The notes beneath the pieces are model-generated. The model was not told the DNA's origin, did not search any database, and saw nothing but the letters and a program-made list of their open reading frames with translations. Positions 48,576-50,636 of a DNA stretch of 64,000 nt are shown here, one piece after another. The stretch lies in assembly GCA_020073445.1 (NCBI GenBank), contig JAIQFE010000001.1, positions 434,001-498,000 on the forward strand, given 5' to 3'. The DNA is from Terriglobia bacterium (GTDB lineage Bacteria > Acidobacteriota > Terriglobia > Bryobacterales > Bryobacteraceae). Within the stretch, counting starts at the first letter, position 1, and the number at the start of each line of letters is the position of its first letter. The position numbers were made by a program, and so were the translations under genes.

Positions 48576-49367
48576 CTATTCTTTAGCGTCTACCCAAACG
48601 ACGAACGCGGCGCCGGCCGTCTTCTCCACCTCGGCAGCCAGGGCGCTAGCTGCTTGAACGGTGAGGGCGTGTCCGACCAACACCCGCCAGAGCGACCGGT
48701 CTCCGTGTGGTTCGACGACTCGTGCATCGGAATAGGGGAGAGTCCCGCGCAAGGCTTCGGCACGCGAGGGATCGGCGAAGGCGCCCGCCTGAACGGCATA
48801 TCCTCCTGCGCCAGTTTGGGGATTTGCTAAGGGTTTCGCCCGAGGAGCAGTCGCTGCCACTGCGGTTCCATTTACCAGAGCCGCACTTACTGGAGCCGCA
48901 GCTAGTGGAGCGGCACTTACTGGAGCTTGGATGACCTTCAAGCGGACGCGCGCGGTTCCCGCCCGAACCATATCGATCTGGCGGGCGGCGCCCACGGACA
49001 GGTCGATGATGCGGCCGTGCACGAAGGGTCCGCGATCGGTGATGCGCACATCCACCTGCTTGCCGTTCGAGAGGTTGGTGATTTCGACCCAGGTCTCAAA
49101 GGGCAGAGCGCGATGCGCGGCGGTCAGCTTTTCCATATCGAAGATTTCGCCGGAGGCGGTCGGTCGGCCGTTATACGGCACACCGTACCAACTGGCGATC
49201 CCCGTTTCGGTGGATCCGATGCGCGCGGGCAGCCGCGCATTGGTGTGCCGCGCGCAGCCGGTCGCGACGATCATCAGTGCGAGCACACACGCGACGCATC
49301 GGACTGCGATGCGCGCGCGACCAGCAAAAATGGGCCTTCGAAGCACTAAAACAATTCTACTCGACAT
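48576..49367 (-). CDS. rlpA: RlpA-like septal ring lipoprotein
   Basis: 263 residues from the ATG at 49367. Lipoprotein signal with VATGCARH (Cys about 38). Double-psi beta-barrel domain (about 55-145): TGIASWYGVPYNGRPTASGEIFDMEKLTAAHRALPFETWVEITNLSNGKQVDVRITDRGPFVHGRIIDLSVGAARQID, with the RDRGPF-type motif (TDRGPF) and catalytic Glu/Asp region. A Pro/Ala-rich linker then a SPOR domain (about 185-263, GGYAVQAGAFADPSRAEAL) that binds denuded septal peptidoglycan. RlpA cleaves naked glycan strands at division. Earlier in-frame ATGs exist, but the signal peptide fits this start. Confidence 0.9.
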   Translation of the reverse strand: MSSRIVLVLRRPIFAGRARIAVRCVACVLALMIVATGCARHTNARLPARIGSTETGIASWYGVPYNGRPTASGEIFDMEKLTAAHRALPFETWVEITNLSNGKQVDVRITDRGPFVHGRIIDLSVGAARQIDMVRAGTARVRLKVIQAPVSAAPLAAAPVSAALVNGTAVAATAPRAKPLANPQTGAGGYAVQAGAFADPSRAEALRGTLPYSDARVVEPHGDRSLWRVLVGHALTVQAASALAAEVEKTAGAAFVVWVDAKE

Positions 49368-49442
49368 CGTTTTATCGATTCCAGGCCTCGCGAGAGCGGC
49401 ACGATGTCTCGTCGCGCCCCTCCCGCGCGGTTCATTTTTTTC

Positions 49443-49471
49443 TTGACTTTCCATGGATTCCACCTTATAAA
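49443..49471 (+). promoter_or_regulatory. Near-consensus sigma-70 promoter of the 21-codon gene
   Basis: TTGACT at 49443-49448 and TATAAA at 49466-49471 are separated by exactly 17 nt. Transcription would start near 49478, giving a leader of about 58 nt to the ATG at 49536. Right after the start point, GCGCT-CTCT (49484-49492) can pair with AGAG-(T)-AGCGC (49497-49506), forming a strong 5' hairpin with a TGGA-type loop and one bulged T. Confidence 0.75.
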
Positions 49472-49535
49472 GGGGACACGACCGCGCTCTCTTGGAAGAG
49501 TAGCGCTTAATCTGATGTAAAGGGAGAATCATTCG

Positions 49536-49601
49536 ATGAAGAACGCAACTAAGAAGAAAGCGGCTGCGAAGAAAAAGGCTGCTCCGAAGAAAAAGAAGTA
49601 G
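49536..49601 (+). CDS. 21-residue Lys/Ala-rich microprotein
   Basis: A 22-codon frame (with stop TAG) starting MKNATKKKAAAKKK and ending AAPKKKK. About half the residues are Lys and most of the rest Ala, like a fragment of a histone H1 tail or nucleoid peptide. AGGGAG (49521-49526) sits 9 nt before the ATG, an excellent ribosome site. The frame is framed by its own promoter and a strong terminator, so the transcript is about 190 nt. No family is known to me. It may act as a nucleic-acid-binding peptide, or the transcript may also work as an RNA. The frame is short, so chance cannot be excluded, but the signals around it argue against chance. Confidence 0.6.
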   Translation: MKNATKKKAAAKKKAAPKKKK

Positions 49602-49632
49602 CCTTAACGGCTCACTAGTTCGAGTTTCAACC

Positions 49633-49668
49633 AATCGGCCCCGAGCAATCGGGGCCGGTTTTGTTTTT
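49633..49668 (+). terminator. Strong intrinsic terminator of the 21-codon gene
   Basis: Stem CGGCCCCGA (49636-49644), loop GCAA, stem TCGGGGCCG (49649-49657), extended by A-T pairs at 49633-49634 and 49659-49660 across a T-G pair. The stem is followed by TTTTGTTTTT (49659-49668). This is a textbook rho-independent terminator and lies 31 nt after the stop codon. Confidence 0.92.
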
Positions 49669-49751
49669 ACAGGACTGGTTTGAAAGCGCAAAGGGCGCGG
49701 CGCGCACCGTTTTGCGCGTCCCCATGATGGAGCGCTGAAACCCACGCCCGC

Positions 49752-50636
49752 TTATAGCTGGAGCGTTTTCAAGTACGCGCGGAACGGGTCTCCCAGGTCA
49801 TGGCGCTTCAGCGCGAATTCCACCGTGGCCTTCAGGAAGCCGAGCTTGTCGCCCGCATCGTAGCGCGTCCCTTCGAAACGATAACCGTAGATCGGGCGGC
49901 TGCGAAGAGCGTGCTTCAGTCCGTCGGTAAGCTGCAGTTCTCCTCCGCTGCCCGGCTCAATGCTCTCCAGCGAGTGGAAGACTTCCGGCGTGAGCACGTA
50001 GCGTCCGATGATCGCCAGATTCGAAGGAGCGTCCTGGGGCTTGGGCTTCTCCACCAGGTTGCGAATCCGGTAGAGCCGGTCCCCGCCGCCGGCGTGGCTG
50101 ACCGGTTCGGCGTCCACCACACCGTACGCCGAAATGCTGTCTTTCGGAACTTCCATGAGGGCGAGCACGGGAGCGCCATAGAACTCGTACACATCCAGCA
50201 GCTGCCGCAAGGCGGGAACTTCCGCGTCGATCACGTCATCGGAAAGAATCACCGCGAAGGGCTCGTCGCCCACCAGCTCGCGCGCCCGCAGAACCGCGTG
50301 GCCCAGGCCGAGCGCTTCCTTCTGCCGGACATAGGAAACGTTGATCATGTCCGAGACGGCCCGCACGGTAGCCAGCAGATCCTTCTTCCCACGGGTTTCC
50401 AGTAAATGTTCCAGCTCGAAGCTGACATCGAAGTGATCTTCGATCGCGGTCTTGCCGCGGCCCGTGACGATGATGATGTTCTGGACTCCGGAATGGATGG
50501 CTTCCTCGACTCCATACTGGATCAGCGGCTTATCCACCAGCGGAAGCATCTCTTTGGGCTGGGCCTTGGTGGCGGGGAGAAACCGGGTACCAAGCCCGGC
50601 GGCGGGGAAGACGGCTTTGCGAACCTTTGCGTTCAT
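49752..50636 (-). CDS. galU: UTP--glucose-1-phosphate uridylyltransferase
   Basis: 294 residues. Makes UDP-glucose from UTP and glucose 1-phosphate for envelope and exopolysaccharide synthesis. Motifs: VFPAAGLGTRFLPATKAQPKEMLPLVDKPLIQYGVEEA (nucleotide site with K-E-M-L-P), FAVILSDDVID (metal site) and GGELQLTDGLKHALRS. Nothing unusual. TAGAAT lies just 9 nt before the ATG, which hints at a leaderless start, but no clear -35 accompanies it. The gene faces the microprotein terminator. Confidence 0.96.
   Translation of the reverse strand: MNAKVRKAVFPAAGLGTRFLPATKAQPKEMLPLVDKPLIQYGVEEAIHSGVQNIIIVTGRGKTAIEDHFDVSFELEHLLETRGKKDLLATVRAVSDMINVSYVRQKEALGLGHAVLRARELVGDEPFAVILSDDVIDAEVPALRQLLDVYEFYGAPVLALMEVPKDSISAYGVVDAEPVSHAGGGDRLYRIRNLVEKPKPQDAPSNLAIIGRYVLTPEVFHSLESIEPGSGGELQLTDGLKHALRSRPIYGYRFEGTRYDAGDKLGFLKATVEFALKRHDLGDPFRAYLKTLQL

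Follow-up and report, generated by a model that had tools for sequence, protein, structure and literature searches.

A conserved small gene of Bryobacteraceae encodes a 21-residue lysine- and alanine-rich peptide with likeness to histone H1-like proteins

What is encoded in the short interval between two minus-strand genes of a soil bacterium of the Bryobacteraceae, and what could a product of only 21 residues do for the cell? We addressed this question in a stretch of 64,000 nucleotides of the genome, referred to here as the window. The original prediction had placed in this interval a complete small monocistronic unit, with TTGACT and TATAAA boxes separated by 17 nt, a hairpin, an AGGGAG site, a 22-codon frame beginning at ATG 49536 and a terminator. 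Direct re-reading returned this layout, including the 21 codons and the TAG stop codon of the frame (Table 1). The downstream GC stem had been described as 9 bp long; a terminator-like stem with a T-rich tail is indeed present, and the scanner assigns 12 pairs to it. No promoter is listed at the unit by the promoter scanner, because its rule requires a T at the last −10 position, which here is an A. The flanking genes are presumably an rlpA-like and a galU-like gene, both named after the original prediction, the former also from general features of its family. Since both lie on the opposite strand, the unit stands alone. As read from the sequence, it is confirmed as a complete monocistronic gene whose expression is predicted. 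The predicted 196-nt transcript has a folding z-score of −2.6 relative to shuffled sequences, and 2 of 200 shuffles fold as well.

Table 1. Positions of the elements of the unit and of its two neighbours in the window.
Feature	Position	Strand	Remarks
Whole unit	49435-49670	+	T-tract, promoter, 5′ stem-loop, ribosome-binding site, 21-codon frame and terminator, read directly
T-tract directly upstream of the −35 box	49435-49441	+	UP-element-like; presumed role
−35 box TTGACT	49443-49448	+	Direct reading
−10 box TATAAA	49466-49471	+	Direct reading; spacer from −35 box 17 nt
5′ untranslated leader	49478-49535	+	Start at ~49478 predicted from the −10 box
5′ stem-loop at the front end of the transcript	49483-49507	+	Compensatory changes; hairpin at about 49484-49506
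Ribosome-binding site AGGGAG	49521-49526	+	9 nt to ATG 49536
Coding frame, 21 residues MKNATKKKAAAKKKAAPKKKK	49536-49601	+	Synonymous bias; stop codon TAG 49599-49601
Intrinsic terminator	49633-49670	+	Scanner: 12-pair stem 49633-49660, T-rich tail
rlpA-like lipoprotein gene (presumed)	48576-49367	-	Divergent neighbour, upstream of the unit
galU-like gene (presumed), UTP-glucose-1-phosphate uridylyltransferase	49752-50636	-	Convergent neighbour, downstream of the unit

The codons of the frame indicate that it is under selection as a protein. Among the 18 distinct 21-codon frames of the genus, third positions vary in 16 of the 22 codons, first positions in 4 and second positions in 2. With the window's frame as reference, and with 4 of the 22 genus loci dropped for being of other length, 78 of 100 changes are synonymous, compared with 37.1 for random placement (s.d. 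4.0, highest value 52 in 5000 draws); this excess is clear in direction but rough in size, because co-inherited changes are counted separately. Lack of a conserved frame in relatives had been named as the observation that would speak against a gene; the frame is conserved, and the claim stands. The 158 complete distinct frames that we read differ from one another by whole codons and remain lysine-rich up to the stop codon.

The window's peptide, MKNATKKKAAAKKKAAPKKKK, carries a charge of +11 on its 21 residues. Over 167 complete frames, which comprise 112 distinct peptides before removal of duplicates, the composition is 45% lysine, 36% alanine and 8% proline, with three acidic residues in total and arginine all but absent. 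Phe, Trp, Tyr, Ile, Leu, Met, Val or Cys occupy only 46 of 4284 positions past the third. Closely related species differ in whether AAP or APA is present. The N-terminal MKNATKK varies less than the remainder of the peptide; for the first five positions this constancy is partly imposed, since they are fixed in part by the search pattern (M, K or M, any, A, A/T or similar). With hardly any residue more hydrophobic than alanine or proline, the peptide should be an unfolded polycation. Its composition is that of the tails of histone H1, AlgP and Hc2.

Loci for comparison were collected through similarity of the DNA or of the leader. The 281-bp stretch around the unit has matches in 62 of 101 genomes (its own and 100 relatives). 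R1, a model that covers the leader plus five initial codons (79 positions, built from 48 loci), matches 218 of 237 Bryobacteraceae genomes, and 141 of the 148 of good quality, with two matches in three genomes (G102, G147 and G195) and one in all others. Five of the 218, from genus g8, match weakly (1e-4 to 7e-4), and the frames that we read come from a part of the 218 that does not include these five. The locus set numbered 171; L134 and L137 gave no frame under the pattern, and L141-L147 were excluded as other loci. Of the 169 loci, 9 duplicated the peptide and leader of another (3 were repeat fetches and 6 came from other genomes) and were removed, which left 160; two of these are cut by contig ends, so that 158 complete frames remain.

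A phylum-wide set of 396 genomes searched with strict filters yielded no R1 match outside the family, the matches being confined to the unit's own genus. With laxer filters, the single genomes of family f2 (same order) and of families f8 and f12 (same class) all match, with frames of 16-26 residues, while seven genomes (one each of f6, f7 and f11, and four of f3) gave no match. A class-level pattern search matched 87 of 399 genomes, this exact-match pattern missing variants and also picking up some unrelated frames; an order-level pattern, which misses even the window's own gene, matched 27 of 100.

The 19 family genomes without an R1 match, several of them incomplete assemblies, were searched again under laxer settings. 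Thirteen returned nothing at E values up to 1, and six returned weak matches only (E 0.001 to 0.94). No lysine-rich frame starting within locus bases 1200-1800 was found at those six loci, nor did closer reading of the weak-match loci in G119 and G106 reveal one. On these results, some genomes of genus g66 seem really to be without the gene, barring a strongly changed copy. As 7 of the 148 good-quality family genomes are without a leader match, the gene is not strictly essential. We take it to be, probably, a small housekeeping gene of Bryobacteraceae.

A viral source and a regulon with a common leader or promoter were considered and set aside. A single leader pattern gave 0 exact matches in viral contigs, and the genome holds one leader match and one match of the strict promoter pattern. 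The short ribosome-site pattern has two matches in the same genome, the second at C91:20854.

Selection is also evident in the control regions around the frame. In 159 of the 160 de-duplicated loci TTGAC is followed by the −10 box, the spacer being 17 nt long in 154 of them and 18 nt in 5; the sole exception, L140, has just 79 nt of contig upstream. A run of at least four T within 4 nt of TTGAC is likewise found in 159 of the 160 loci. Model R1, with which many of the loci were found, includes neither the −35 box nor the spacer. GGGAGA precedes the start codon in 154 of 160 loci. A terminator with exact stem and T-rich tail was detected in 149 of 166; in the other 17, several of them from the long-form genus g5, the stem is imperfect or the T tail weaker. 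Chance assembly of promoter, ribosome-binding site, frame and terminator is ruled out by this conservation in relatives. By eye, the terminator stem sequence (GGCCCCGA type) repeats in many loci, and the stretch from stop codon to terminator shows no evident sequence common to the family. In several relatives (for example L023, L111 and L121) an extra GC-rich stem is seen by eye in the counterpart of the gap 49602-49632.

Compensatory changes support the 5′ stem of the transcript. In an alignment fitted to this stem, 97% of the cells are paired and all five modelled pairs are changed on both sides, with 44 such cells compared with 10.7 ± 2.5 after shuffling; an unfitted MAFFT alignment has two-sided changes at three of the five pairs. 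A second stem, holding the ribosome-binding site in its loop, was rejected, with 2 double-change cells against 2.1 in shuffles. A search of the unit against Rfam 15 returned five matches with E values of 2.3-7.9, all below the gathering score, which rules out a known Rfam element. The fourth residue, alanine, is encoded by GCA in 146 of 169 loci, as against 130 of 1519 other alanines, and the message near the start codon is therefore constrained beyond its residues. Between the 5′ stem and the start codon, too, the leader looks more constant than would be required for an ordinary ribosome site. Taken together, the conserved RNA parts (5′ stem, ribosome-binding region, first codons and terminator stem) would fit roles in message stability, translation start and termination.

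Of the proposed rlpA-galU synteny, the rlpA half holds: of the 86 loci whose upstream flank is 700 nt or longer, a few repeat fetches included, 62 have rlpA divergently upstream. In contrast, galU directly adjoins the unit in convergent orientation, at a distance of 81-156 nt, in only 8 of 60 loci, representing seven genomes (L002 and L031 share one contig). In the remaining loci galU is further off or out of range, and its adjacency is restricted to some members of the genus; the synteny is thus only half conserved. The hfq gene said to be encoded in the window corresponds to an Hfq-like frame at about 14666 on the minus strand, recognized by a motif match only and located ~35 kb from the unit.

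Under the common promoter and leader, frame lengths range from 16 to 120 residues, and 141 of the 158 frames have no more than 32 (16-32 residues). All 15 loci read from genus g5, in which 19 genomes match, encode 46-120 residues with KKAAAPA-like repeats and begin with MK[NY]AT like the short forms. Long forms beyond g5 are one g66 locus of 52 residues and one g87 locus of 76. The 87-residue form at L133 retains the divergent rlpA (39% identity over 242 residues); at the other g5 loci the fetched flank is too short for this comparison, and no rlpA was found in the upstream flank of the 52-residue g66 locus, L170. The shared promoter and leader, together with rlpA at L133, place the 21-residue peptide at the short end of one orthologous series, the long end of which has the sequence features of a plain H1-like protein. 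Because families outside Bryobacteraceae have short forms, the short form probably preceded the long ones.

Further lysine-rich frames were noticed away from the unit. The window's own genome (L286; C39:118862-119347) and at least four relatives (L141, L142, L144 and L147) encode a longer, acidic-headed H1-like protein with a KAAPKK tail. In another genome of the same genus, L143 (G011) holds another short frame rich in lysine (MATKKKAPAKKK...), the end of which is rich in proline and glycine. An 85-residue lysine-rich relative at L199 (G035:C66), off the main copy, starts with MKLATKK and is without the usual leader upstream. Loci L134, L137, L146, L166 and L167, from other families of the order or class, have similar K/A-rich frames, of uncertain orthology, with 15 to >100 residues and behind different leaders.

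The resemblance to histone H1-like proteins that had been suggested for the peptide is borne out by its same-leader orthologues, H1-like repeat proteins that can be as long as 120 residues. Profile searches set a limit to this assignment. For the 21-residue form, neither Pfam nor NCBIfam gave a match. The 52-residue form matches Pfam HC2 (PF07382) with an E value of 1.2e-5 and 26 bits against a cut-off of 40, and the NCBIfam H1-like models NF038053 and NF038052 with 26.9 against 80 and 16.7 against 135; four other long forms gave no H1-type match. Because the 52-residue form also weakly matches unrelated K/A/P-rich models (extensin, valine-tRNA ligase, Rv3852 and Rpf), these sub-threshold matches show composition, not descent. 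Correction for biased composition may lower such profile scores. Two marks of H1-like proteins of the Hc2/AlgP type are thus present, K/A/P low complexity with near-zero acidic residues and in-frame change of repeat length, and a score above the curated cut-offs (PF07382, NF038053, NF038052) is absent. With those cut-offs unreached and the matches shared with unrelated models, the peptide is best described as a minimal H1-like variant, not a certified member, and DNA binding is predicted.

We consider it probable that the peptide is a minimal H1-like protein: a polycation, unfolded and made in abundance, with which DNA (or else RNA or polyphosphate) is coated. In this mechanism, a strong and constitutive sigma-70-type promoter would give rise to a ~190-nt mRNA, the 5′-terminal stem-loop of which would shield its front end. 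The open ribosome site would drive translation of the +11 polycation, and the terminator would end the message. Given a consensus-like promoter and a stable message, much of the peptide should be made; it would bind polyanions through its charge, most likely DNA, in the manner of a histone H1 tail, and may help to compact or lubricate the nucleoid. Repeat units would have been added in some lineages, up to 120 residues, with promoter and leader unchanged. DNA is most likely the main target, with polyphosphate and the ribosome as rivals. A bolder proposal, which we put forward only tentatively, is that this minimal H1-type chromatin unit of 16 to 32 residues shapes the nucleoid across the family, repeat number serving as an evolutionary dial of DNA or polyanion condensation. 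However, H1-like composition can come from convergence, and with only ~2 kDa and 11 lysines the affinity of the peptide for DNA may be too low for an architectural role. A longer, acidic-headed H1-like protein is already encoded in the genome, so the small peptide may also act otherwise.

Very small basic ribosomal proteins exist, such as bTHX, mycobacterial bL37 and eukaryotic eL41, and a lineage-specific ribosome-associated peptide neutralizing rRNA would agree with the size and charge of the product, with the consensus-like promoter and with a gene that is found, usually once, in nearly all genomes of the family, as well as with the steadier N-terminal MKNATKK, in so far as the search pattern has not imposed it. 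An embedded peptide should not tolerate expansion from 16 to 120 residues, AAP/APA swaps and scarcity of arginine, however, and neither neighbour in the window is a ribosomal gene. Small ribosomal proteins are fixed in length and sequence; here we find 16-120 residues and 112 peptides in 167 frames, and as repeat number and residue order vary so freely we regard a ribosomal role as unlikely. Little probability also attaches to a polyphosphate- or nucleoid-granule peptide that, like AlgP, would bridge polyphosphate and DNA or drive condensates. AlgP is located on polyphosphate granules and binds DNA as well (PMC9239181); the long g5 orthologues have AlgP-like KKAAAPA repeats, but the short form is without AlgP's separate N-terminal part.

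The suggestion that the transcript might equally well be a dual-function or regulatory small RNA, with the frame secondary, is not supported, and we consider it improbable. Compensatory changes in the 5′ stem, the steady leader stretch before the start codon, the GCA-biased Ala4, the terminator stem of GGCCCCGA type that recurs by eye and an hfq-like gene in the window are all in its favour. Yet codon-level selection is strong, no Rfam match reaches threshold, the stop-to-terminator gap shows by eye no evident family-wide sequence, and the second stem around the ribosome-binding site is unsupported (2 versus 2.1 double-change cells); the conserved RNA fits the signals of an mRNA, and the link to Hfq consists of an hfq-like gene ~35 kb away. 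Leader peptides rich in a single residue exist, and this one is cationic, so precedent and charge could suggest a leader peptide for a downstream gene or a secreted, antimicrobial peptide. Either is very improbable: with 46 of 4284 positions occupied by FWYILMVC there is no hydrophobic stretch fit for a signal sequence, and the directly following terminator and the opposite-strand neighbour argue against control of a downstream gene.

A literature search at the level of titles and abstract openings found no description of the gene, which may still have been published. The gene belongs to the core of the family, and its 21-residue form lies outside the Pfam and NCBIfam models. Annotation may pass over it because the frame is so short, and trypsin-based proteomics should miss a peptide so rich in lysine. 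The natural series of 16-120 residues under one promoter and leader offers a test of charge and repeat number against nucleoid compaction.

Among known systems, the acidic-headed H1-like proteins at L141 and L286, from the same genomes, resemble the peptide in their KAAPKK-type tails but differ in their acidic N-terminal part, their length of about 160-230 residues and their separate loci. The ribosomal proteins bTHX, bL37 and eL41 are alike in size and charge, but are fixed in sequence and length, whereas the orthologues of the window's peptide vary sevenfold in length. Chlamydial Hc2 and the Burkholderia H1-like proteins (HC2, NF038053) share lysine-rich repeats and in-frame length polymorphism; in Hc2, repeat number varies through in-frame gain and loss and the protein has 165-237 residues (PMC2848022), compared with 16-32 in most loci read here, which fall under every cut-off tested. 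Of the compositional relatives found that have a known phenotype, AlgP of Pseudomonas aeruginosa is the closest. Its KPAA-repeat tail and the KKAAAPA of the g5 orthologues are both K/A/P repeats, but AlgP has a tail of 154 residues besides a separate N-terminal part (PMC9239181), while the window peptide is without such a part and about one seventh as long as the tail. Known H1-like proteins have long repeat tails (154 residues in AlgP, 165-237 in Hc2), and set against them the 16-120-residue series makes the minimum useful length of such a protein testable.
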